Source of the DNA: Pedobacter sp. ASV12
GTDB taxonomy: Bacteria; Bacteroidota; Bacteroidia; Sphingobacteriales; Sphingobacteriaceae
DNA length: 64,000 nucleotides
Reading direction: 5' to 3'
Assembly (NCBI RefSeq): GCF_016429155.1
Contig: NZ_JAELUC010000004.1
Location: forward strand, 1 to 64,000
Shown: piece after piece, positions 37,263 through 49,349 of the stretch
How positions within the stretch are numbered: position 1 is the first letter of the stretch
How the letters are laid out: each line of letters starts with the position of its first letter
Position numbers and translations under genes: made by a program
Notes under the pieces: generated by a model
What the model was told of the DNA's origin: nothing
Database searches by the model: none
What the model saw: the letters and a program-made list of their open reading frames with translations, nothing else

Positions 37263-38105
37263 ATGAAGAAAATCGGCCTTTTGGCAGCATTTGCCTTATT
37301 TATTACCGCTTTCAGTTCCTGTGTTATCCTGTCGCCGAAAAAATACAAGGCTCTATTGGCCAAACAAGATTCGCTCAATACCGGGTGGACCGAATCGCAG
37401 CTTAAAAACGAAAGCCTCGAACAAAGAATAGCGCGCTTAAAGGCAGATACCGCTTCTTTAAATGGTCAACTGGCCGATTTAAGATCCAAATACACCGAAA
37501 TGGACGGCAACTATGCCAAGCTGAGAAGCAACAGCTCATCCGAAATCAATAAATTATCGGCCGACTTAAAAAAACGCGAACAGCGTTTAAAAGAGGTGGA
37601 AGAAATTCTGCGCAAACGCGACGAAGCGACCAACCAATTGAAGGCCAAGCTACAGGAAGCATTGTTAGGCTTTACCAAAAATGGCCTTACCGTCGAAATC
37701 AAGAACGGCAAGGTTTATGTTTCGCTAACCGATAAATTGCTGTTCCCTTCGGGCAGTATTATTATTGACGAGAAGGGCAAACAGGCCTTAACGCAACTGG
37801 CAACCGTATTAAAGCAACAGCCGGAAATCAATATCGCTGTTGAGGGCCATACCGACTCGCAAAAAATCAACAATTTGGGCCAGATCAAAGACAACTGGGA
37901 TTTGAGCGTACTGCGTGCCACTTCGGTAGTTCGTTTCTTAACAGAAGAGCAAAAGGTAGAAAGCGTAAGGATGACCGCAACCGGAAAGGGAGAGTATCAG
38001 CCTTTGGCACCCAATACCTCGGCCGAAAACCGCAGCAAGAACCGCAGGATAGAAATTGTGCTTTCGCCTAAACTAGACGAGCTGTACGATTTGATCAAGC
38101 AATAA
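37263..38105 (+). CDS. OmpA-family lipoprotein with coiled coil
   Basis: 280 residues. Lipoprotein signal ends near FSSCVILS. Residues 25-135 are heptad-rich, Lys/Glu/Leu coiled coil (LKKREQRLKEVEEILRKRDE). The C-terminal OmpA domain (about 160-275) has LLFPSGSIIIDEKG, VEGHTDSQ and NRRIEIVLSP, including the Asp and Arg that bind the peptidoglycan diaminopimelate. It should bridge the outer membrane and cell wall. A strong hairpin follows. Confidence 0.92.
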   Translation: MKKIGLLAAFALFITAFSSCVILSPKKYKALLAKQDSLNTGWTESQLKNESLEQRIARLKADTASLNGQLADLRSKYTEMDGNYAKLRSNSSSEINKLSADLKKREQRLKEVEEILRKRDEATNQLKAKLQEALLGFTKNGLTVEIKNGKVYVSLTDKLLFPSGSIIIDEKGKQALTQLATVLKQQPEINIAVEGHTDSQKINNLGQIKDNWDLSVLRATSVVRFLTEEQKVESVRMTATGKGEYQPLAPNTSAENRSKNRRIEIVLSPKLDELYDLIKQ

Positions 38106-38138
38106 ATCATGACTTATTGGGTCCTCGCCCAATAAACG

Positions 38139-38175
38139 GAACAGCCCTATCTGCAAATCGTAGATAGGGCTGTTC
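38139..38175. terminator. Bidirectional terminator between convergent genes
   Basis: GAACAGCCCTATCT (38139-38152) pairs perfectly with AGATAGGGCTGTTC (38162-38175), a 14-bp stem with a 9-base loop, between the OmpA-like gene (+) and rfbC (-). T-rich sequence flanks it (TTCATTTA). Confidence 0.8.
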
Positions 38176-38177
38176 AT

Positions 38178-38729
38178 TTAAAACGGACTTTCCAGCGACT
38201 TAAAATCGCTAAGGAGCAAGTCTTTGTCTGAAAGAAGTATTTCGCTGCGCTCAATATTGCCCCAATTAACGTTGAGGGTGGGATCATTCCACATGATGCC
38301 GATCTCTGAATGCTTGTCGTAGTAATTGGTTACCTTATAAGTGAAAATCGTATTGTTTTCGAGCGTTAAAAAGCCATGCAGAAAACCAGGGGGCATCCAA
38401 AGCTGCTTACGGTTTTCGCCAGAAAGTTCAATACTGAAATGCTGGCCATAAGTAGCCGAATCTTTCCTGATGTCTACGGCCACATCGAGTACGCTTCCTT
38501 GGATTACCCTTACCAGCTTGCCTTGTGCAAATGGAGGCGCTTGTGCATGCAGGCCGCGCAGGGTTCCCTTTTGAGAAAAAGATTGGTTGTCTTGTACAAA
38601 AACGGCATGAATGCCAGCCGCTTCAAAGGCCTTGGCATTATAGCTTTCGTAAAAATAGCCTCTGGCATCTTTCCATACTTTTGGCTCGATCACCAAAAGG
38701 TCCTTAATAGGTGTTTGTATAATGTTCAT
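38178..38729 (-). CDS. rfbC: dTDP-4-dehydrorhamnose 3,5-epimerase
   Basis: 183 residues of the RmlC cupin family. It epimerises carbons 3 and 5 of dTDP-4-keto-6-deoxyglucose on the way to dTDP-rhamnose for surface polysaccharide. Family elements are DARGYFYESYN, QDNQSFSQKGTLRGLHAQ (with the catalytic His), GSVLDVAVDIRKDS, WMPPGFLHGF and the Tyr-containing TYKVTNYY. The rest of the rfb pathway (A, B, D) is not in this window, so the gene is isolated here. Followed by the DUF4286 gene head to tail with no spacer. Confidence 0.94.
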   Translation of the reverse strand: MNIIQTPIKDLLVIEPKVWKDARGYFYESYNAKAFEAAGIHAVFVQDNQSFSQKGTLRGLHAQAPPFAQGKLVRVIQGSVLDVAVDIRKDSATYGQHFSIELSGENRKQLWMPPGFLHGFLTLENNTIFTYKVTNYYDKHSEIGIMWNDPTLNVNWGNIERSEILLSDKDLLLSDFKSLESPF

Positions 38730-39032
38730 CTAGTCTACGTATTGCATGAGGGTGCGAAAGGCTACAAACCGGTTTTCAAACCTGGCTTGCATTGCGGCCT
38801 GTAGGGCGGGCGAATGCATGGTTCTATAGGCCTCATAGCTTTCGAGGTCTTCAACCACATATTGTGCGCAAAAAGTTTGCCCCTCATTGGGCGAATCCAA
38901 TACCTTGAGCAGGCGGTTAGACACAAATTTGCCGGTAGCCATTACCTCGGGTATATGGGTTTCCTGCATCCACTGCATCCATTCGTCGGCGGCAGAATCT
39001 TCAAGAATTACAGTTACATTGTATAAAAGCAT
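38730..39032 (-). CDS. DUF4286 family protein
   Basis: About 100 residues, small soluble protein of the DUF4286 family (ferredoxin-like alpha/beta fold similar to stress-responsive dimeric barrels). Recognisable segments are YNVTVILEDSAADEWMQWMQETHIPEVM and SNRLLKVL, FCAQYVVEDLESYEAY. Start set at ATG 39032; a TTG two codons upstream is less likely. Its stop abuts the rfbC start, so the two are probably co-transcribed. Function unknown. Confidence 0.85.
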   Translation of the reverse strand: MLLYNVTVILEDSAADEWMQWMQETHIPEVMATGKFVSNRLLKVLDSPNEGQTFCAQYVVEDLESYEAYRTMHSPALQAAMQARFENRFVAFRTLMQYVD

Positions 39033-39046
39033 GCGCAAAGATAGGA

Positions 39047-40855
39047 TTATGTGCCTACATTATCACCTCGTATGTTTCTAAAGCGTTTTCTGGCTTCGGC
39101 ATTGAACATACTTCCGGGGTAGTCGTTCATCAATTGCTGATACAATTTTTTGGCTTCGTCGGGCTTGTCCAGTTTTTTGTCGTACAGATCGGCCAGGGTA
39201 AAAAGTGCATCATCAATCCAAATGCTGTCGTGGTGAGCATCAATCAGTTCTTTCAGCATGTTCACCGCTTTCTCCAGGTCGTTGGTTTTGATGTAGATTT
39301 TGGCTTTGGCCATTAAAATATCATCGGTAAGGCTGTTGTTCGGAAAAGCAACATCGATGCTGTCCAATTTCACCAACGCTTCGCTGCTGCGGTTCATAAA
39401 CTGCAGCATATCGGCATCGGCATACATCTTAAGCGCCAAGCTGTCGTTTTTGCTTTGCAGGTTGTCTGAAATCAACAGGCTAAGGTTAAGGGCGTCGTTG
39501 GCAATCAGTTGCGAAGTAGAGGCCTTCAGTACATCGGCCTGCGATTTGGCATATTGGAAATCGCCCACGTAGAAAAACAATTTGGCCGATCGGTATTTGG
39601 CTTCGCTGCCCATGGGCTGATTTTCGAACTGCTTGGCCACCTGCTCATAAACCAAAATGGCTTCCCAGGGCTGTTTAGTCAGGATGTAGATATCGCCCAA
39701 ATCCATTTTAAGCTGGGCCATGTCAGTCGGCTGTATGCGTTGTATCTTGAGACCTTCTTCGAGGGTAGCCTCTGCCTTTTTCAGGTCGTTGAGGTAATAG
39801 GCCTGCAGGTAGGCTAATCTTTGCAAGGCGTAAAGGCTCTGCGGCGTTTTGCCATACTGGGCCAAAATGGCTTCGTATTCATTGGCCAAGGCCTGGATGG
39901 CAGGTTTTTCGAATTTGCCACTAATGGCCAACTGGTATTTGGCATTAACCAGTTCAATTTTGGCGGGCAGGTAAAAATCGCTTTCCGTACCCTTGGCCAA
40001 TAGGTATTCGTAGGCCTTAATGGCTGTGGTATAGGCTTTATTGGCCACAAAGGTGTTGGCTGTATTGTAGAGCAGCGTGCCATCGCCCTTGGTGCGCTTG
40101 TCTTGTGCAATAAGCTGGCGCAGGGCCATTTCGTATTCCTGTTGCTGTATGTATTGCCAGATCAGCATTTCGGTATAAACCTCTGCCTGCGGGTCTTTTT
40201 GTATTTTTTTGAGCAGGGCTGCCTGCAACAGCTGGTAATCTGCATTGCTTTCGAAAACAGAGGCCAGTACATTTTGCGCCTGCAGCTGCAGCTGCGGGGT
40301 GAGTGCCAGGGCGTTAACATACTCTTGGATAAGGGCCAATTTGTCTTTTTTGAAACGATAGATACTCAGCAGTTCATATAAAAAGAGCTGGTCGTCGGCC
40401 AAGAGCTTGCGGCCCTGCAAAAATGTGGCGGCCGCCATATCGTAGGCCTCAAAACGGTAAAAGCTGTTAGCCAGGTCCCTAAATTTATTTTCGTCTTTGG
40501 GCGTGTTGGCTATGGCTTCCTGAAAAATCTTGTTGGCTTCGGCAGTTCGTCCGTTTTCCTGATAAACGCGGCCAAGCGCTACAGCATATTGGCTTTTTTG
40601 GGGATATTGCTTAATCAATCCTTTCAGCAGGCTTTCGGCTTCGCTGTATTTCTTGATTTTGATTAGCGCATTGAAATAGAGTTCAAAATAGCCGTCGTTC
40701 TTGGTTTTATTAAACAGTTTTTCCAGCAGCACCGCGGCTTTTTCGTAGTCGGCCTGTTGGTAATACTGATAGGCCAAAGCCTCGTCTATGTCATTTTGCG
40801 CCAGTAGCGTAAAAAACGAACAGGAAAGAAAAATGAGCAAAATGAATCTTTTCAT
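39047..40855 (-). CDS. Long TPR-repeat protein, exported
   Basis: 602 residues. Signal peptide (RFILLIFLSCSFFTLLAQ). The mature part is a chain of tetratricopeptide-type helical repeats from about residue 25 to 595 (for example YYQQADYEKAAVLLEKLF, YAVALGRVYQENGRTAEANKIF, MDLGDIYILTKQPWEAILVYEQVA, FTLADLYDKKLDKPDEAKKLYQQ). TPR proteins scaffold complexes; being periplasmic it may hold envelope machinery. The last repeats resemble the outer-membrane BamD/YbgF type. Upstream of DUF4286 with 14 bases spacing, so likely one operon with rfbC. Confidence 0.9.
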   Translation of the reverse strand: MKRFILLIFLSCSFFTLLAQNDIDEALAYQYYQQADYEKAAVLLEKLFNKTKNDGYFELYFNALIKIKKYSEAESLLKGLIKQYPQKSQYAVALGRVYQENGRTAEANKIFQEAIANTPKDENKFRDLANSFYRFEAYDMAAATFLQGRKLLADDQLFLYELLSIYRFKKDKLALIQEYVNALALTPQLQLQAQNVLASVFESNADYQLLQAALLKKIQKDPQAEVYTEMLIWQYIQQQEYEMALRQLIAQDKRTKGDGTLLYNTANTFVANKAYTTAIKAYEYLLAKGTESDFYLPAKIELVNAKYQLAISGKFEKPAIQALANEYEAILAQYGKTPQSLYALQRLAYLQAYYLNDLKKAEATLEEGLKIQRIQPTDMAQLKMDLGDIYILTKQPWEAILVYEQVAKQFENQPMGSEAKYRSAKLFFYVGDFQYAKSQADVLKASTSQLIANDALNLSLLISDNLQSKNDSLALKMYADADMLQFMNRSSEALVKLDSIDVAFPNNSLTDDILMAKAKIYIKTNDLEKAVNMLKELIDAHHDSIWIDDALFTLADLYDKKLDKPDEAKKLYQQLMNDYPGSMFNAEARKRFRNIRGDNVGT

Positions 40856-41049
40856 CGAAGACGTTTTGGCGTTGGTACCTAAAATTAATTATTTTGAACG
40901 CAATTTAAGCCTGTTTGTTCAAATAACGAAAATTGTGCGCGCGTATTCTAAATGTTACTCGCAATTTATTTGAATAAATTTCAATGTTGGCTACATTGAA
41001 ATCCTAAATACGGCTGCGGAGTAAGTAACAATATTAACGGCAAATGCCC

Positions 41050-41076
41050 TTGCCTGCAAGGTGTTCCGTATTTTTG
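41050..41076 (+). promoter_or_regulatory. Promoter of the S9-like gene and two-component system
   Basis: TTG at 41050-41052, 16 bases, then TATTTTTG at 41069-41076, an exact -7 match. It lies 15 bases before ATG 41092 and inside the longer open frame that starts at 41044, which supports 41092 as the true start. Confidence 0.55.
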
Positions 41077-41091
41077 TGTGATTTTTTAAGT

Positions 41092-42984
41092 ATGACGTTA
41101 GCGAAAAGATATATTTTATTGGTACTCGGAACATTGCTGTTGGCCTGTAGCAGGGGCAATAAGGTGCCCGAAATTCCGGTCAACGATTTTTTCAAATCGC
41201 AAGACAGGGCCACGTACCGTATATCTCCGGATGGCAAAAGTCTTTCGTACCTGAAGTTGCAAGACAAAAAGCAAAATCTCTTTGTCGAAGATATCGCCAC
41301 GGGCAAAGTGGTGCAGCTAACCCGCCTGCGCGAAAAAAACATCAGCTTTTATTCCTGGGTTAGCAACAACGAACTGATCTATTACAAGGAAAAACATGGC
41401 GATCGGTTTCAGTCTGATTTGTTCATCATCAACAAAGGGGGCAAAGACGAACGCCAGCTGAGTAGCAACGAAAAAACGAGAATGCGTGTGCTCGACGACC
41501 AGTTGATGGACGATAAATACCTGCTCATTCTGTCTAACCAACGCGATTCGACGGTTTCTGACGTATATCGGCTCAACGTACGCGACGGCAAGATGGAAAT
41601 GGCGGCACAGAACCCCGGCAACATTACCAAATGGATAACCGATTCGAAAGGACGGCTCCGCATGGCGACTTCGAGCGACGGGGTAAATGAAAAATTGCTG
41701 TACCGCGAAAACGAAGGGCAGGAATTTAAAACCATACTCACCAATAATTTTAAAACTACTTTGTTTCCGGTGGCTTTTGCCGAAGAGAAACCCAATACGG
41801 TGTACGCCATTTCTGACGTGAACCGGAACAACAGCGCTTTGGTTGAGCTCGACTGCCTAACGGGAAAAGAAAAAAGCGTACTGTTTTCTAACGATACCCT
41901 GAACGTGGTAGATGCCCAATACTCGAAAAGGAAGGGCAAAATGGCTTATGTGGTTTGCGAAACTTGGAAAAAAGAAAAGCATTACCTCGACAACGATGCC
42001 AAAGTGCTTTACCAAAAGCTGGATAAATTATTGGCGAAGGCAGAAGTAAGGGTCATCGATCGCGATAAGAGCGAAGATGTATTTGTGTTGCGCACATTTA
42101 CCGACCGTAACCCAGGTTCGTACTATCTGTACATTGCCAGCAACGGTACGCTGAAGAAGCTCAGCGATATCAATTCTTCGATCAAGGAAGAAGAAATGTG
42201 TGAAATGAAGCCCATCAGTTTTACCTCGCGTGATGGACTGAAACTGAACGGTTACCTCACCCTGCCTTTAAATTCGACAGCTAAAAACCTACCTGTTGTG
42301 GTGGTCCCGCATAACGGACCAGGCCAACGCAATACCTGGGGCTTTAATGCCGAAGTCCAGTTTTTTGCCAACAGAGGCTATGCCGTGCTGCAAATCAATT
42401 ACCGGGGCTCGTCGGGCTATGGCAAGAATTTTTATGCCGCCGGTTTTAAGCAATGGGGTGGCAAGATCCAAGACGATATTGATGATGGCGTACAGTGGCT
42501 CGTACAGAAGAAAATTGCCAATCCGCAGCGCATTGGCATTTACGGTAGCGGATTTGGAGGCTACATCGCCCTCAATGCGGCTATTAAAAGTCCTAAGCTC
42601 TACAAATGTGCAGCCTCTAATACGGGTGTATTAAACCTGTTCAGCTACTTGAGCACGATTCCGCCTTTCTTTAGGTCGAATCTGCAGATGTATTACGAAA
42701 TTATAGGCAACCCCGATACCGACGTAGACTACATGCGCCAGGCATCGCCTATTTTTCACGCCGAGAAAGTAAATATCCCTATCTTTATTACACAAAACAC
42801 CAAAGATCCGCGCATCAGCGCCAGCGATGCCATCCGCTTTGTTAAAGAACTTAAAAAGCGCAACGTGCCGGTAACTTATTTTGAAAGGGAAGACCTGCCT
42901 TTCGGAATGGGACGCGAAGAAAGCCGACAAAAGACCTACGCCGCGCTCGAAAGTTTTTTGGAGAACAATTTGAAAAAGAAATAG
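41092..42984 (+). CDS. S9 (prolyl oligopeptidase)-like lipoprotein with lost catalytic residues
   Basis: About 630 residues. Lipoprotein signal ends LLLACSRG. The N-terminal half is a beta-propeller (WD/DPP4-like; RATYRISPDGKSLSYLKLQ), the C-terminal half an alpha/beta hydrolase fold typical of S9: PVVVVPHNGPG, QFFANRGYAVLQINYRGSSGYGKNF, DDIDDGVQWL. The GxSxGG nucleophile motif reads YGSGFGGY, so position 487 is Gly where Ser is expected; the adjacent Ser486 is out of register. The acid Asp572 is present (NTKDPRI). The His of the usual EGHGF motif is Phe604 (EDLPFGMG). With Ser and His missing, normal peptidase activity is unlikely: it looks like a binding or sensing pseudoenzyme. Six bases before the kinase gene. 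Confidence 0.88.
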   Translation: MTLAKRYILLVLGTLLLACSRGNKVPEIPVNDFFKSQDRATYRISPDGKSLSYLKLQDKKQNLFVEDIATGKVVQLTRLREKNISFYSWVSNNELIYYKEKHGDRFQSDLFIINKGGKDERQLSSNEKTRMRVLDDQLMDDKYLLILSNQRDSTVSDVYRLNVRDGKMEMAAQNPGNITKWITDSKGRLRMATSSDGVNEKLLYRENEGQEFKTILTNNFKTTLFPVAFAEEKPNTVYAISDVNRNNSALVELDCLTGKEKSVLFSNDTLNVVDAQYSKRKGKMAYVVCETWKKEKHYLDNDAKVLYQKLDKLLAKAEVRVIDRDKSEDVFVLRTFTDRNPGSYYLYIASNGTLKKLSDINSSIKEEEMCEMKPISFTSRDGLKLNGYLTLPLNSTAKNLPVVVVPHNGPGQRNTWGFNAEVQFFANRGYAVLQINYRGSSGYGKNFYAAGFKQWGGKIQDDIDDGVQWLVQKKIANPQRIGIYGSGFGGYIALNAAIKSPKLYKCAASNTGVLNLFSYLSTIPPFFRSNLQMYYEIIGNPDTDVDYMRQASPIFHAEKVNIPIFITQNTKDPRISASDAIRFVKELKKRNVPVTYFEREDLPFGMGREESRQKTYAALESFLENNLKKK

Positions 42985-42990
42985 ACTGAA

Positions 42991-44664
42991 ATGATTTCAG
43001 AAAAAGATACTGGATATCGCAAGAATTTTTCGCTGATCGTCACTTTTATTGTCCTGATTTCGGTTGTATTCGTCCTTTCCCTGTTTTTGGCCTTCAATTA
43101 CAGCAAAAAGAACATCGAAAACGAATTTGTTTCGGCCAAGGCCAATGTGCTGGAAGAAAGCATCAAGCCTTATAACGATTTCTTTTTTAATAAGCTGCCG
43201 GAAATTTCTTACTACAACGGCTTTCTCGATTCAGCAACGGCTTCCAAGTTTGTCGATACCATCCTGCTTCAATACCCCTTTGTATCGAAGGTAGTTTTTT
43301 ACGATACGGAGGTAAAAAACATCAAATACGAGGAGAATGGCCTTAACCAGGGCCATTTCGCCATCGGGATGAAGAGTGTTTACCAGTTTGGCAGCTTGGT
43401 GCCTAAAGATTCGATCAAATTGTTTAGTGCTAGCGAAGGCAGGAATTATGCCGAAACGGAAGACTTTAATGCTTCGGCGCTAAAAATCATCAATTTTTTG
43501 CAGAAGCTCGATACGGCTAAGGTGCCCAACCAGGATAAGTTGTTCAGCAGCTTTGCCACGATTCGCTCCAATAAAATCGATTATTTTAATATTCCGAGCC
43601 CCGAACTGCTCAAAACCTATAAAAGGATGGTGTCAGAAAAGCTCGATTCGGATCCTATTTACCAGCAAGACCTGCTTTCTTTTGAGCTCGACCCCAGCAA
43701 GATCAAGATTAAGAACACCCGGCCACTTTTATATCAGCATATCAAAATAGAACCGATTACCTACGACCCTTTGGATGCTTCTGAATATATAACCGGCGAG
43801 ATTTCCCTGCCTGGGGCATTTTCGGAGTTTAAGCTTTATTTCATCTCGTCGAGGTCTTTCGTCAAGAAGGAAATATTCAGCTACTTTTTGCCTATAGCCG
43901 CGCTTTTGCTGCTGTTTTATGGCGTATTGGTGCTGGTGGCCTTTCTCATTTACCGTAACCTGAACATCAACCATAAAATGTTCAAGCTGCAGTACGATTT
44001 CCTGACCAACCTGACGCACGAGTTCAAGACCCCGGTAAGCGTTATCAAGATTGCGGGCAACAACATCAAGAGCGCACCAAGCATCAGTGAGCGCGAACAA
44101 AAGCTGTACGGAAAAATATTAGACGAAGAAGCCGATAAGCTTAATGGACTGATGAACAAATTGCTGGCTTTTACCCAAATCGAAAACAAGGCCATTACCC
44201 TTAACCGCGACGAAATTAACGTGGCCGAGTTTATCGAAAGTACCATCGATGTACATTGCCTCAAGCATCCCGATTTCGATTTTACCTACGAACTGGATGG
44301 CTTTAAAACCCTTGTAACCGATCCGGTACTGCTGGGCAGCCTTTTCGACAACCTGGCCGAAAATGCCTATAAATATTCGCCGGTTAACCACAAAAAGCTG
44401 CATATTTCGGCCCGCTTGGTTAAAGATCGTGTGGTATTCAGGTTCAAAGATGCAGGCATCGGTATTCCATCGTCGGAAATAAATAATATCTTTAAAAAGT
44501 TTTACCGCATTCAGAACCGCTACAACCAGAATGGAAGCGTAGGACTGGGCTTGGCTTTTTGCAAAGAACTGGTTAACTTTATGGGTGGCGAAATCACCGT
44601 AAAAAGCGTGGTAGACAAAGGAACCGAATTTAAAATTGTATTACCCTATAATAACGAGTTGTAG
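42991..44664 (+). CDS. Sensor histidine kinase
   Basis: 557 residues. Two membrane helices (about 13-32 and 297-325) enclose a periplasmic sensor region of about 265 residues that I do not recognise. The kinase core follows: H box LTHEFKTPVSV with His343, N box (LFDNLAENAYKYSP), G1 (DAGIGIPSSE), F box (FKKFYR) and G2 (GSVGLGLAF). There is no visible HAMP domain. It should phosphorylate the response regulator 74 bases downstream. The S9-like pseudopeptidase lipoprotein immediately upstream is a plausible co-sensor. Confidence 0.93.
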   Translation: MISEKDTGYRKNFSLIVTFIVLISVVFVLSLFLAFNYSKKNIENEFVSAKANVLEESIKPYNDFFFNKLPEISYYNGFLDSATASKFVDTILLQYPFVSKVVFYDTEVKNIKYEENGLNQGHFAIGMKSVYQFGSLVPKDSIKLFSASEGRNYAETEDFNASALKIINFLQKLDTAKVPNQDKLFSSFATIRSNKIDYFNIPSPELLKTYKRMVSEKLDSDPIYQQDLLSFELDPSKIKIKNTRPLLYQHIKIEPITYDPLDASEYITGEISLPGAFSEFKLYFISSRSFVKKEIFSYFLPIAALLLLFYGVLVLVAFLIYRNLNINHKMFKLQYDFLTNLTHEFKTPVSVIKIAGNNIKSAPSISEREQKLYGKILDEEADKLNGLMNKLLAFTQIENKAITLNRDEINVAEFIESTIDVHCLKHPDFDFTYELDGFKTLVTDPVLLGSLFDNLAENAYKYSPVNHKKLHISARLVKDRVVFRFKDAGIGIPSSEINNIFKKFYRIQNRYNQNGSVGLGLAFCKELVNFMGGEITVKSVVDKGTEFKIVLPYNNEL

Positions 44665-44738
44665 TGCTGGGTTTGGCCTGTAGCATGCTGTAGGCAGTAA
44701 CGTTCCAATTTAAGCACTGCACTTTAAAACTAAAAAAA

Positions 44739-45428
44739 ATGTCTAAAGGAATTAAAATACTGATTGTTGAAGACGACGAAAATCTTCGTTTCTTGGTGGT
44801 ACACCGTTTACAGGCAGAAGGATACGAGGTGTTGGAGAACAGTGATGGACTAATAGCCGTGGAGACCATTGTAAACGAAAAGCCCGATATTGTGCTGCTC
44901 GATTGGATGCTGCCTGGCAAAGAGGGCTCTGAAGTATGCGAAGAAGTACGTAAGCAGGGCTATGAAGGCCTGGTGATTATGATGACAGCCAAAGCGCAGG
45001 ATGTAGATAAGATCGATGCCTATAATTTTGGAGCTTCTGATTATGTAACCAAGCCCTTTAACATGGACGTACTGGTAGCCATGCTCGATAGCAAGGTGAA
45101 GTTCCTGCTTAACAACGACCGTTCAGAAATACATCGTTTTGGCAACATGGAGCACCACCCGAATATCCATACCCTGTTTCGCGATGGCAAGAAAATAGAA
45201 CTGACCATTTTAGAAAACAGGATTTTGCTGTATTTCTTGCGCAATCCGAACAAGGTAATCAACCGCGACGAGCTGATGCTGGTGGTTTGGGGCTACAATT
45301 CGGATGTAAATACCCGTACCCTCGACATGCACATTGTAAGGCTACGCAAAAAGATTGAACTCAATCCCGATAATCCGCAATTGCTGCAAACCGTTCGCGG
45401 TATCGGCTACCGCTTTAATGCCGGATAA
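44739..45428 (+). CDS. OmpR/PhoB-family response regulator
   Basis: 229 residues. Receiver domain with acidic pair EDD (residues 11-13), phosphoacceptor Asp55 in VLLDWMLPG and Lys in DYVTKPF; C-terminal winged helix (about 130-229) with DELMLVVWGYNSDVNTRTLDMHIVRLRKKI and GIGYRFN. Paired with the upstream kinase. Ends in a candidate hairpin terminator facing the next, convergent gene. Confidence 0.94.
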   Translation: MSKGIKILIVEDDENLRFLVVHRLQAEGYEVLENSDGLIAVETIVNEKPDIVLLDWMLPGKEGSEVCEEVRKQGYEGLVIMMTAKAQDVDKIDAYNFGASDYVTKPFNMDVLVAMLDSKVKFLLNNDRSEIHRFGNMEHHPNIHTLFRDGKKIELTILENRILLYFLRNPNKVINRDELMLVVWGYNSDVNTRTLDMHIVRLRKKIELNPDNPQLLQTVRGIGYRFNAG

Positions 45429-45497: not shown

Positions 45498-46388
45498 TTA
45501 AAAAAGCTTGTCCAGCAGATTGGTGGCAAACAACATGGCGCACTGTAGGATCATCATGCCGTCGAGCCACAAGAAATAATAGTATTCGCTTCTTTTCGGG
45601 CTCGATTTAAAAATGAGCCAGCCTGTTAAAAAAATGGTTAGGGCTAAAGCGGCCACATCAAGGTTGATGGTTTTGGTAAACAGCACCAGCAAGATCAGGT
45701 ACAACCCTAATATTACCAAACAAAAAAACCAGGCCTTTTTCTCCCACGAAGTTACCGTAATGGTTTTAAGCTCGTAGATTTTGTCTTGGAAAAGGTCCCT
45801 GCTATCGAAAGGAATGGTTAAGGCGCAGATGAACAGCAAACGCTGGGCAAGCAAAAGAATTGTTTCGCCTAGCGGAATGACAATGCCATAATTGTTTTCA
45901 AGCTCTACAATAGGCAGCAATACGCAGCTAACCGACCATATAAAGGCAATCAGAAACAATTTGATAACCGGCAGGTTGCGCAGGATTATCTTTTTTTGGT
46001 CTAGCGTAAGAAAAGGGAAATTATAAGCCACGGCAATAATACCTACAAAACCCATCAGCAATTTGGCCTGCATGCTTAAGTACAGCAAAGCTAGTGGTAT
46101 GATGCACAGGATGGCAATCATCGTTATCGATATCATTAAGCGATGATGCGCAAAGAACCAGTCTATTCTCTTGAACTGCGATTTTTGCAGGTCGGCCGGC
46201 TTGGTTAAGAGTACGCTGAGGTTATAGCTAATGAGTGTGGCAAAGAACAAAAACGCCAATACATATCGATCTGCCGGAAGCCCCAGTAAATAATAGGTAA
46301 CCAAGCCTTGTGCAACGGCACAAACAGCAATAAAAATATTGCTGAAAAGCAGAAAGTCCAGAACAGAAAAAAGTATTTTTTTAAACAT
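45498..46388 (-). CDS. UbiA-like membrane protein, first Asp motif missing
   Basis: 296 residues with about eight to nine membrane helices. The layout follows UbiA prenyltransferases: a second-motif-like DSRDLFQDKIYELKTITV in a cytoplasmic loop at about residues 196-213 resembles DxxDxxxDxxxxxxT. The first motif that should bind prenyl diphosphate (NxxxDxxxD) is replaced by NLSVLLTKPADLQKSQFKRIDW, with no proper Asp pair. It is a distant paralogue of the next gene, transcribed away from it. UbiA-type prenyl transfer is doubtful; function unknown. Confidence 0.7.
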   Translation of the reverse strand: MFKKILFSVLDFLLFSNIFIAVCAVAQGLVTYYLLGLPADRYVLAFLFFATLISYNLSVLLTKPADLQKSQFKRIDWFFAHHRLMISITMIAILCIIPLALLYLSMQAKLLMGFVGIIAVAYNFPFLTLDQKKIILRNLPVIKLFLIAFIWSVSCVLLPIVELENNYGIVIPLGETILLLAQRLLFICALTIPFDSRDLFQDKIYELKTITVTSWEKKAWFFCLVILGLYLILLVLFTKTINLDVAALALTIFLTGWLIFKSSPKRSEYYYFLWLDGMMILQCAMLFATNLLDKLF

Positions 46389-46538
46389 TTCTCGTTAATT
46401 GGCTCATTTGGTCTATTGGCCAATAATTAGCTCGGCATGAATGTAAATATCGCAATTTCCGGCAAAATATCAACCCCGTTGCTTCAGCCTCAAAAATCAT
46501 AGCTACAAGCTGCTTGATAATTGTTTATTTTTGAATGA

Positions 46539-47450
46539 ATGGTAGGCAAGCTCATCAGGTCGATTTTTTTTGGCAACTATTTCGTTGGTATGCTGGCCGT
46601 TGCCCTTACCATAGAAGCTTGTTTGCAATTGGGGCTGCCTTTCCCTTCGGCCACTTATTTTGTACTGCTTTTCATATCGCCTACGGTTTATTACACCTAT
46701 GCATACAGAGGTGCCATGAAGCTGCAAAAACCAGCCAATTTGCGGGCAAAATGGTATGCCGAGAACAGGACCTTCGTGAAGTATAGCCAATGGATCTTAT
46801 TTGCCGTTTCGATGTTGCTGGCTACTTATTTGTTGGTGAAGAATATAGCCGGCGTTTTAAGCCTGCCCAGGGATTATTGGGCCAGTATAGTGGTAATTCT
46901 GTGTGCCGGCGCATTTTATTACGGTTTGTTGCCCCGCTCTTTTTTAAGCCTCAACCTACGCAACAAGGGCTGGCTCAAAGCTTTTGTAATTGGATTTGTA
47001 TGGGCCTGTTGCGCGAATGTGCTGTTGCTGATCATCTTAAAAATAGAGCTCGATATCAACGATAAGGATTGGCCTTTATGGATTTGGCTTTTTGTTAAAA
47101 ATTGGATGTTCTGCACCGTAAACGCCATCATGTTCGACATTAAGGATTATCCCACCGATGCCAATAAGGATTTGCGGACTTTTGTGGTCCGTTATGGCTT
47201 GCGCGCTACCATTTTCTATATTTTAATCCCCTTGCTGGTTATTGGGCTGGCTTCGCTGTTGATTTTTGCACATTACCGGCATTTTCATGCGTTGCAACTG
47301 TTGTTCAATACCTTGCCCTTTATGGCTACCATTGTTGTTGCCTATTCCATGCGCAAGCGCCATAAAATCCTCTACTATTTAATGGTGATAGATGGGCTGA
47401 TTTTATTTAAATCGATTTGTGGGATTTTAGGTGTGCTTACTTATGGCTAA
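46539..47450 (+). CDS. UbiA-like membrane protein, paralogue
   Basis: 303 residues, about eight to nine membrane helices, paralogous to the divergent neighbour. The second motif is well kept: FDIKDYPTDANKDLRTFVVRYG, as in UbiA enzymes (DIxDxxxDxxxxxRTxxVRxG). The first motif region reads AYRGAMKLQKPANLRAKW, without Asp. A TATTTTTG -7 element at 46526-46533 would give an almost leaderless transcript. The stop overlaps the methyltransferase start by 8 bases (ATGGCTAA), so the two are translationally coupled. Could be a prenyltransferase with an altered donor site, but this is uncertain. Confidence 0.72.
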   Translation: MVGKLIRSIFFGNYFVGMLAVALTIEACLQLGLPFPSATYFVLLFISPTVYYTYAYRGAMKLQKPANLRAKWYAENRTFVKYSQWILFAVSMLLATYLLVKNIAGVLSLPRDYWASIVVILCAGAFYYGLLPRSFLSLNLRNKGWLKAFVIGFVWACCANVLLLIILKIELDINDKDWPLWIWLFVKNWMFCTVNAIMFDIKDYPTDANKDLRTFVVRYGLRATIFYILIPLLVIGLASLLIFAHYRHFHALQLLFNTLPFMATIVVAYSMRKRHKILYYLMVIDGLILFKSICGILGVLTYG

Positions 47451-48075
47451 GCGAGAACCCTCTTATGATAAAATAGCTCAGCACTACGATTTTTTAAGCC
47501 GACTGGTGTTTTTTAAATCGCAGGTAAAGGCGCAAACCGAACAGTTGGGCTATATCAAACACTGCAAAAAGCTGCTTATTGTTGGTGGGGGCACAGGGTG
47601 GATTTTGAAAGACCTGAATGCCATAACCCAGCCCATTGCCATCGTTTTTGTAGAAGCGTCCATTGAGATGATTGCATTGGCCAAAAAAGTCGATACACAT
47701 CACGCCGTCGAATTTGTTCATCAGGATATTGAAACCTACCAAACCGACCAGTTTTTTGATGCCGTACTCACGCCCTTCTTGTTCGATAATTTTGATTGGG
47801 CAAAGGCCGAAAAAGTATTCGCCCATATTGATGCTTTATTGGCCACAAAAGGGATTTGGATTGATGTTGATTTCTACCTGAACAGACAATCGGCGCTATG
47901 GAAAAGAACAATACTCAAGACTATGCATTTGTTTTTCAGGTTCATCAATGTTGTTCGCGTAAACGATCTGATAGACACTTCTCCGTTTTTTAAACCTCAA
48001 TACATCCCAATAACCGAAAAGCATTATTACGGCAATTTCATTAAAGCGGTGGTTTATCAAAAACGGTTGCCTTAA
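47443..48075 (+). CDS. Class I SAM-dependent methyltransferase
   Basis: About 210 residues. Start ATG 47443 overlaps the upstream stop; the GTG-initiated frame at 47431 is less likely. Motif I is LLIVGGGTGWIL, followed by FVEASIEMIALAKK, a VEFVHQDIE segment and FDAVLTPFLFDNF. The family methylates small molecules, lipids or quinones. Coupling with a UbiA-like membrane protein suggests a lipid or quinone-type substrate, by context only. N-terminal PSYDKIAQHYDFLSRLVF is like UbiE/COQ5-type methyltransferases. Confidence 0.85.
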   Translation: MAKREPSYDKIAQHYDFLSRLVFFKSQVKAQTEQLGYIKHCKKLLIVGGGTGWILKDLNAITQPIAIVFVEASIEMIALAKKVDTHHAVEFVHQDIETYQTDQFFDAVLTPFLFDNFDWAKAEKVFAHIDALLATKGIWIDVDFYLNRQSALWKRTILKTMHLFFRFINVVRVNDLIDTSPFFKPQYIPITEKHYYGNFIKAVVYQKRLP

Positions 48076-48101
48076 AGCGATGGGCTATCTCTGTACTGGA
48101 T

Positions 48102-49349
48102 TTATGCCCTTTGCAAGGTGAAAATCGTGATTTCGGGCAAAATCCCTACGCGGCCAGGATAGCCCAAAAAACCATAGCCCACGTTTACATAAAGCTGTTG
48201 TTGCTTTTCGCGGTAAAGTCCGGCCCACTCCTTGTAAATGTACTGCACCGGGCTCCATTGAAACTCTTTAAGCCTTACGCCAAACTGCATGCCATGTGTG
48301 TGGCCACTAAACATGGCATCGATTTGCGGGTATTTTTCCAATACCTCGCCACGCCAATGCGAAGGATCGTGCGAAAGCAGCAGCTTAACCGGCAAATCGT
48401 CGGTGTTTTGCGTAGCCAGTTCCATTTTGCCGTATTTCGGAAAACGGCCCATGCCCCAATTCTCGATGCCCAAAATGCCGATTTCTTCGCCACCAACTTT
48501 GAGCCGGCGATGTTCATTCATCAGTAAGTCGTAACCCATAATCTTATGGGTAGCAATCATATCCTGCAGGTTTTTGACCTTGGCTGGCGAAGTTCCCCTG
48601 CCAAAATAATAATCGCCGTAATCGTGGTTGCCCAAGGTAGAATAAACACCCAATGGGGCTTTGACCTTGGCAAAAATATCCTGATAATCTTTGACCTCGC
48701 TGGTGAGGTTGTTCACCAAATCGCCGGTGAAGAACACAAAATCGGGTTTTTCGGCCATCAGCATTTCTACGCCACCTTTTACCGCTGTTTTATTGTAAAA
48801 GCTGCCCGAATGGATATCTGAAATCTGCGCCATGGTAATGCCATCAAACGCTTTGGGCAGGTTGGGCAATACCAAACGCACCCTTCTGATTTGGTAATCG
48901 TAGGCGCCCGAAATAATGCCCCAGCTCAACGAACTAAGCGGAACGGCGGCCGCCACCAATCCGGCTTTAACCAAAAATGCCGAACGGCTAATGGGTTCGC
49001 CGGCTATGGGCTCGGTTGCTTTAGCAGGTTCTCGTTTGTGCTTAAAAAGCTTGATGGCCAACCGCCTCAAATCGTCGATGAGCAAGAAAGGCAGCATAAA
49101 CACTTTGGCGGTTGAAAGCAGGAAGAAGGCCACCAGTATAATGGCTCTGATGGTCAGGAACAAGTTGAGGTAAATGGCACAAAATACCCCAACAATCAGT
49201 ACCAGGCTAAGGGCCCACCAAATGTAGGCGAAAATGCGCCTGGTTTTGGCCGACCATTTTTTAAAAACGTTTAGGATGGCGTAATAACAATAGAAATCAA
49301 GTGCCAAAACAACCAGACACAGGATAGAAAGAAAGAGGCTACGACCCAT
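48102..49349 (-). CDS. Membrane-anchored metallophosphoesterase
   Basis: 415 residues. Three or four N-terminal membrane helices (residues 1-95), a linker, then a calcineurin-like phosphoesterase from about residue 150: DIHSG, GDLVNN, GNHDYGDYYFGRG, LLSHDPSHW, GHTHGMQFG, all metal-binding motifs present. This is the YkuE/UDP-diacylglucosamine-type branch with membrane helices. A Ser/Ala-rich TAT-like stretch (SRSAFLVKAGLVAAAVPLSS) lies just before the catalytic domain. Phosphoester substrate unknown; probably a membrane lipid or nucleotide. Converges on the methyltransferase. Confidence 0.9.
   Translation of the reverse strand: MGRSLFLSILCLVVLALDFYCYYAILNVFKKWSAKTRRIFAYIWWALSLVLIVGVFCAIYLNLFLTIRAIILVAFFLLSTAKVFMLPFLLIDDLRRLAIKLFKHKREPAKATEPIAGEPISRSAFLVKAGLVAAAVPLSSLSWGIISGAYDYQIRRVRLVLPNLPKAFDGITMAQISDIHSGSFYNKTAVKGGVEMLMAEKPDFVFFTGDLVNNLTSEVKDYQDIFAKVKAPLGVYSTLGNHDYGDYYFGRGTSPAKVKNLQDMIATHKIMGYDLLMNEHRRLKVGGEEIGILGIENWGMGRFPKYGKMELATQNTDDLPVKLLLSHDPSHWRGEVLEKYPQIDAMFSGHTHGMQFGVRLKEFQWSPVQYIYKEWAGLYREKQQQLYVNVGYGFLGYPGRVGILPEITIFTLQRA

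Follow-up and report, generated by a model that had tools for sequence, protein, structure and literature searches.

A lipoprotein of the S9 peptidase fold with repeatedly lost catalytic residues, encoded with a two-component system in Sphingobacteriaceae: a putative accessory subunit of a sensor kinase

DPP6 and DPP10, ancillary subunits of Kv4 channels, are pseudo-S9 proteins in which the catalytic Ser is replaced, by Gly in DPP10, and their partner is a membrane signalling protein (PMC4350108, in the part of that source available). Fly DPP10 is described as an ancillary subunit and an active peptidase at once (PMC4873792, available in part). In the QseG-QseE-QseF system a lipoprotein is encoded together with a kinase and a regulator, whose proposed role is to control kinase activity on the periplasmic side (partial texts of PMC12691602 and PMC6075780), and CpxP is a periplasmic accessory protein that modulates the sensor kinase CpxA (PMC4160245, in the accessible portion).

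The locus described here lies in a window of 64,000 nucleotides (the whole stretch of DNA that was analysed) from Pedobacter sp. ASV12 and encodes an S9-like lipoprotein, a histidine kinase and an OmpR/PhoB-type response regulator. The S9-like protein resembles DPP6 and DPP10 in having an S9 fold with the Ser replaced; however, these are animal S9B membrane proteins with a channel as partner, and DPP10 keeps His and Asp (PMC4350108, same portion), whereas the present protein is a bacterial lipoprotein whose closest kin are acylaminoacyl peptidases and whose presumed partner is a histidine kinase. The doubly employed fly DPP10 offers a parallel to the intact copies of this operon described below (PMC4873792, as above). 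QseG shares with the S9-like protein its place beside kinase and regulator genes; for QseG kinase activation has been shown, whereas for the S9-like protein an effect on the kinase is proposed; the two are likened by description, and the available part of that account does not describe QseG as a former enzyme (PMC12691602). The role proposed for the S9-like protein is that of CpxP towards CpxA (PMC4160245, as above). In this operon, by comparison, the gene of the former enzyme stands first. CpxP also belongs to another protein family and has another gene arrangement. No description of such a system was met among the matches listed in the open-access literature, outside which most subscription papers lie.

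The sequences offer evolutionary hints of an association between the S9-like protein and its kinase. Many separate losses of the cutting residue, with the rest of the protein kept, suggest that the dead-peptidase lipoprotein serves now as a binding partner of the kinase. We consider it probable, with considerable room for doubt, that the locus encodes an accessory-lipoprotein two-component system in which a non-catalytic pseudo-S9 subunit tunes the kinase. The lipoprotein would be exported and lipid-anchored at Cys19; its retained propeller and hydrolase body, perhaps with the emptied active-site pocket, would bind a ligand in the periplasm, the kinase or both, and cut neither; the lipoprotein would touch the kinase's extracytoplasmic sensor, probably a dCache domain, where Tyr75 is a candidate contact, and set kinase activity; and the kinase would phosphorylate the OmpR-type regulator. 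This regulator probably acts in turn on boxes upstream of its own operon and, in Pedobacter, of the gene for an outer-membrane beta-barrel protein. The operon, the repeated loss of the triad, purifying selection, the S9-less exceptions, the Tyr75 pattern and the boxes can be read from the sequences; we infer the S9-kinase contact, the direction of control, the ligand and the binding of the regulator to the boxes, and peptide binding by the S9-like protein, raised in an earlier note on this DNA together with a hand-over of the signal to the kinase, is a guess. If this reading is true, the locus would be a bacterial counterpart of DPP6/DPP10, in which one protein of one operon occurs in nature intact, half-decayed and dead across about 20 genera, together with lineages that do without it. 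Soil bacteria would then allow tests of how an enzyme turns into a signalling subunit, and for what reason, and of whether the kinase is set by cutting or by binding alone.

The operon and its distribution

Features of the locus, in window coordinates
Feature	Position	Strand	Remark
Conserved upstream box GTATTCTAAATGTTAC, candidate regulator site	40943..40958	+	
Second conserved box TTAATATTGTTACTT	41023..41037	-	inverted relative to the first
Promoter-like TTG ... TATTTTTG	41050..41076	+	kept in the 14-row upstream alignment
S9-like lipoprotein, pseudo-peptidase	41092..42984	+	630 aa
Signal peptide to lipobox Cys19	41092..41148	+	from sequence
Gly487 codon GGA at the place of the catalytic Ser	42550..42552	+	
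Asp572, kept	42805..42807	+	
Phe604 at the place of the catalytic His	42901..42903	+	
Histidine kinase (HisKA, HATPase_c)	42991..44664	+	557 aa
Kinase extracytoplasmic sensor, about residues 37-298, probable dCache fold	43099..43884	+	predicted model
Kinase Tyr75, candidate S9 contact	43213..43215	+	
OmpR/PhoB-type response regulator	44739..45428	+	229 aa

The earlier note had the coordinates and reading frames of all three genes right, as well as the spacing of 6 bases between the S9 and kinase genes and the position of the regulator gene after the kinase. By Pfam, a HisKA and HATPase_c kinase stands beside a receiver and Trans_reg_C regulator, the make-up of an OmpR/PhoB-type pair, and a lipoprotein encoded with the kinase is a feature that the locus shares with the functional class of accessory-lipoprotein two-component systems, in which the lipoprotein binds the sensor and changes kinase activity, as it may do here. 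Cys19 is near-invariant, and a lipobox-like motif (lenient pattern) is present in 146 of 149 S9 rows. The promoter-like element before the S9 gene presumably corresponds to the Bacteroidota-type -33/-7 pattern.

Within the window's genus 118 of 119 genomes, its own counted, have the S9 protein (E 1e-60), as do 288 of 301 Sphingobacteriaceae genomes from 22 of 25 genera (E 1e-80), the family being named after the NCBI lineage that the named Pedobacter loci carry; the protein's nearest named relatives are Pedobacter, with identity up to 81% over the S9 protein. Kinase and regulator follow it in 68 of 70 named loci (L007-L035, many evidently the same records as named loci, were left out of the counts). 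The exceptions are L097, from an uncultured Bacteroidetes bacterium, and L100, from Oceanirhabdus; both are distant relatives with an intact triad, and neither this kinase nor this regulator was matched in their loci. The three-gene order, which the earlier note had made a condition of its reading, holds across the family: the kinase follows in all 68 Pedobacter-type loci and, on the same strand, in 39/40 and 40/40 of the loci fetched from other genera (80, in two batches), with the regulator seen in 38 of each batch, some stretches being too short. The S9-kinase gap is at most 34 nt in 145 of 147 loci, the smallest being -4, and exceeds this in L108 (189) and L143, where the S9 frame is interrupted. 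The sensor profile matched 150 of 151 genomes of the order, one copy each; across the class it matched 10 of 295 genomes, all in this family, and none of the remaining 285 (E 1e-8; the 20 listed belong to other families).

Such linkage bears on the possibility that the S9-like lipoprotein has an unrelated, non-enzymatic envelope job, as scaffold, chaperone or scavenging binder, and merely shares transcription with the kinase-regulator pair or is under its control, an explanation that we regard as rather unlikely while giving it real weight. The neighbourhood is syntenic anyway, and adjacency is weaker than it looks because gene order is conserved more widely too (TPR, RmlC and others). Against this, the S9 and kinase genes are linked in 147 of 148 loci, the exception stopping at a contig edge, and S9, kinase and regulator remain side by side in loci that showed none of eight other neighbours from the window (four of five g16 loci and one of two g4 loci).

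The syntenic block spans window positions 37263-40855 upstream and 45498-49349 downstream in much of the family; we take its upstream part to consist of OmpA-like, RmlC-like, small and TPR genes and its downstream part of UbiA-like and phosphoesterase-like genes. Kinase and regulator genes (gap at window 44665-44738) are about 48-298 nt apart in many Pedobacter-type loci and 3-5 nt in others, and the regulator may have a promoter of its own in this gap. In L161 (G231) the S9-like protein is cut to 503 residues, apparently without part of the propeller, and still precedes kinase and regulator; in L139 (G223) and L143 (G247), single genomes, the S9 frame is interrupted, by either sequencing error or decay, with kinase and regulator open. 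Elsewhere, in L281 (G077) and L282 (G006), S9 paralogues with intact triads lie in divergent orientation beside another, distantly related kinase-regulator pair (25-30% identity), so that S9 genes may have paired with two-component systems more than once.

Fold and catalytic residues of the S9-like protein

Homology to peptidase family S9 is evident from the Pfam Peptidase_S9 match (PF00326, E 5.6e-40, residues 416-629), from a nearly full-length alignment with the solved acylaminoacyl peptidase 5l8s, which is also the best Foldseek match of the model by E-value (TM 0.70/0.72), and from the AlphaFold2 model itself (pLDDT 88), in which a beta-propeller and an alpha/beta-hydrolase domain are predicted; the retained fold was thus rightly described in the earlier note. 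Its assignment of the active site also stands after re-alignment to 5l8s and to intact relatives, by which no active Ser or His was recovered: the nucleophile of GxSxGG is absent, with Gly487 in its place, the catalytic His is absent, with Phe604 in its place, and Asp572 is kept. Active S9 acylaminoacyl peptidases such as 5l8s and the NCBIfam Dpp5 family share fold and domain order with the S9-like protein, which differs in lacking the catalytic Ser and His and which scores 98 bits against the Dpp5 model, far under the 900-bit cut-off. Two trivial causes were rejected. Misalignment was considered since Ser486 adjoins Gly487; the alignments are gap-free there and residue 486 is variable. Sequencing error or chance does not account for Gly487, which is the same in 69 of 69 Pedobacter-type orthologues. 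The loss is accordingly conserved, with Asp572 in all 69 and His604 in none; two outgroup rows aligned with them are intact and have both Ser and His.

In the wider catalytic-state alignment of 149 rows (68 Pedobacter-type, 79 from 21 other genera and two outgroups; the fragments or broken frames L104, L143, L145 and L163 are excluded), the nucleophile site of the 79 rows is Ser in 32, Gly in 42, Arg in three and Asn in two, a loss of Ser in 47; eight of these genera are all intact, ten all lost and three mixed, many being represented by one to three rows. All 34 Ser-bearing rows, outgroups counted, keep His and Asp, and Ser without His occurs in none; His without Ser occurs in ten. Both are gone in 104 rows (68 Pedobacter-type and 36 others), as well as in L185, the one row in which Asp (Asn there) is not kept, against 148 with Asp. 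The pattern indicates an order of decay in which Ser goes first. The Ser codon of the 32 intact family copies is AGT (22) or AGC (10), one base away from codons of Gly, Asn and Arg.

The complete triad of every Ser-bearing row implies that it is under selection where Ser is present. This suits the idea that the system is still enzymatic, intact copies cleaving a substrate in the periplasm, with the kinase sensing what is released, and dead copies using another mechanism or nucleophile, for which Ser486, next to Gly487, might be proposed in the window protein. However, residue 486 is variable and is Ser in only seven of 71 rows, no replacement residue is seen in the rows that have lost both Ser and His, and we hold this explanation to be improbable.

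The minimum number of changes is 13 on the S9 tree built without the catalytic columns, on the same tree without two long rows and on the kinase tree, and counting losses only gives 16; the counts themselves do not separate loss from regain, loss being favoured by the full triad of the outgroups and of every intact row. An early loss passed down to all is ruled out by both trees: a single origin of the dead state is rejected on the S9 and kinase trees (p-AU 1.1e-53 and 7.4e-5), and on the kinase tree so is one origin inside genus g21 (4.6e-8), for groups named after the first tree had been seen and on trees made by a quick method (LG+G4) with 15 of the 68 Pedobacter-type rows. Outside the operon the triad is kept in eight of eight cases (six Pedobacter S9 paralogues, L097 and L100). 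As read from these alignments, the operon is older than the loss of Ser. The earlier claim of a unit built around a dead peptidase therefore falls, since many relatives have the same operon with an intact Ser-Asp-His triad. Loss of Ser may instead have made a cutting enzyme into a pure binder, repeatedly. That a peptidase became a non-cutting co-sensor of one kinase family at least 13 independent times, Ser going first, His later and Asp staying, with dead and intact forms doing the same signalling job and Tyr75 marking the contact, is a tentative generalization, which we would not yet back over its negation.

A further alternative is that the gene is decaying towards loss and has no function in the dead lineages. 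The two broken frames (L139, L143), the shortened L161 and six S9-less genomes fit such decay. On the other hand, the S9 frame is open in the rest of the 149 rows, 118 of the 119 genus genomes have the gene, 66 positions are near-invariant in dead and intact sets alike, the elbow glycines 485, 489 and 490 included, and dN/dS is low in dead pairs, so that pseudogene decay was set aside as very improbable. The median pairwise dN/dS of S9 is 0.028 (range 0.009-0.149) in 24 dead pairs, 22 of them Pedobacter and 15 of these from six loci, and 0.049 in eight intact pairs; for the kinase it is 0.020 with dead and 0.060 with intact pairs (simple Nei-Gojobori counts on within-genus pairs sharing 12-mers, dS 0.02-1.5, omitting L161, L139 and L089). 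Judged by these counts, dead S9 copies are under strong purifying selection. Positions 477, 544, 547, 569 and 604 are fixed in intact and freer in dead copies.

The kinase sensor and lineages without S9

The sensor of the kinase had been called unrecognised. This stands in so far as no Pfam model matches before residue 336 (E 0.1) and Foldseek finds nothing for the sensor model (pLDDT 79) at E 0.001, the best being 0.024; it fails in so far as the domain is probably a divergent dCache domain. In VIA-align the top rows reach Z 8-9.4 over about 173-214 residues with rmsd mostly 3.6-4.9, against a common background of Z 7-8. We take the rows at Z 8-9.4 to be mostly chemoreceptor and kinase ligand-binding domains of the dCache type.

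Five small g11 genomes and, as a second lineage, G108, which carries the genus code of the window, have kinase and regulator without an S9 match alongside, and in the five of these loci that reach far enough a TPR gene adjoins the kinase. Whole-genome searches found no S9 in G128 and G150 (E 1e-30), in G165, G175 and G185 (1e-80) or in G108 (1e-60); in G182 neither S9 nor kinase was found at the thresholds used. Since six genomes keep kinase and regulator without S9, the S9-like protein looks like an accessory rather than an obligatory receptor. Loss of S9 where kinase and regulator stay would also suit a passenger or output gene; the state of the kinase in these lineages argues otherwise, Tyr75 being altered in both. 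Of the 146 S9-bearing rows, among them L161, L139 and L143, 145 have Tyr at residue 75 and one has Phe, and in the S9-less rows it is His in six of six; the site of L156, which is empty in the kinase alignment, was read by eye, and the pattern amounts to two events only. Seven further kinase positions of at least 90% conservation are altered in both lineages as well, and the G108 kinase is divergent overall, with eight of 33 near-invariant positions changed against 0-4 in S9-bearing genera. In the predicted sensor model Tyr75 comes after the long first helix (residues 4-74), which would put it probably far from the membrane.

Upstream boxes and a candidate target gene

Both upstream boxes are kept before S9 in 14 aligned Pedobacter-type loci. 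In the 400 bases that precede S9 the core TGTTAC occurs in 62 of 68 Pedobacter-type and 55 of 81 other-genera loci, a 6-base core being sometimes expected by chance (L097 has one); it is absent from 26 of the 81, with none in g2, g3, g4, g14 and g16. Conserved boxes before S9 are what an output or feedback gene would show; in the accessory-subunit reading that we prefer, the regulator is the natural candidate to bind them.

In its own genome the full box occurs exactly once, and the sole site with one mismatch lies about 85 bases before the gene of a 930-aa outer-membrane protein (OMP_b-brl_3 and CarboxypepD_reg domains). Such a boxed gene is present in ten of ten Pedobacter genomes examined, the own genome and nine of nine others that were hand-chosen and mostly close relatives, so that their conserved promoter regions are not independent. 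Over 12 genomes, 19 of 28 box matches lie at S9 (9) or at the outer-membrane gene (10); as the reversed-pattern control gives 35 matches, the number of boxes is not enriched and only their positions are telling. At one mismatch no box was found before the S9 genes of G072, G143 and G121. A large box regulon was rejected, 12 matches with up to two mismatches in the own genome comparing with 23 for the reversed control. No convincing box was seen before 28 outer-membrane homologues of other genera, or before the copy in the S9-less G108; the best sites over these 29 have 3-6 mismatches, at estimated start positions and with L270 left out, and 400 shuffles of one 260-base stretch reached a best of 3 four times. 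At the boxed locus G192:C1:1023048 (L247) the translations show no such outer-membrane gene, and G143:C21:546648 (L248) is another boxed locus.

In Pedobacter the box GTATTTAAAWTGTTAC at G000:C77:15940-15955 (L206, L245) stands about 85 bases before the outer-membrane OMP_b-brl_3 gene, and boxes of the same type likewise precede OMP_b-brl_3 genes in L227, L229, L230, L232, L235-L237, L240, L241 and L244. G072 has two tandem copies of the outer-membrane gene, each with its own box. The boxed OMP_b-brl_3 genes mostly adjoin VanZ-like and GcvH genes.
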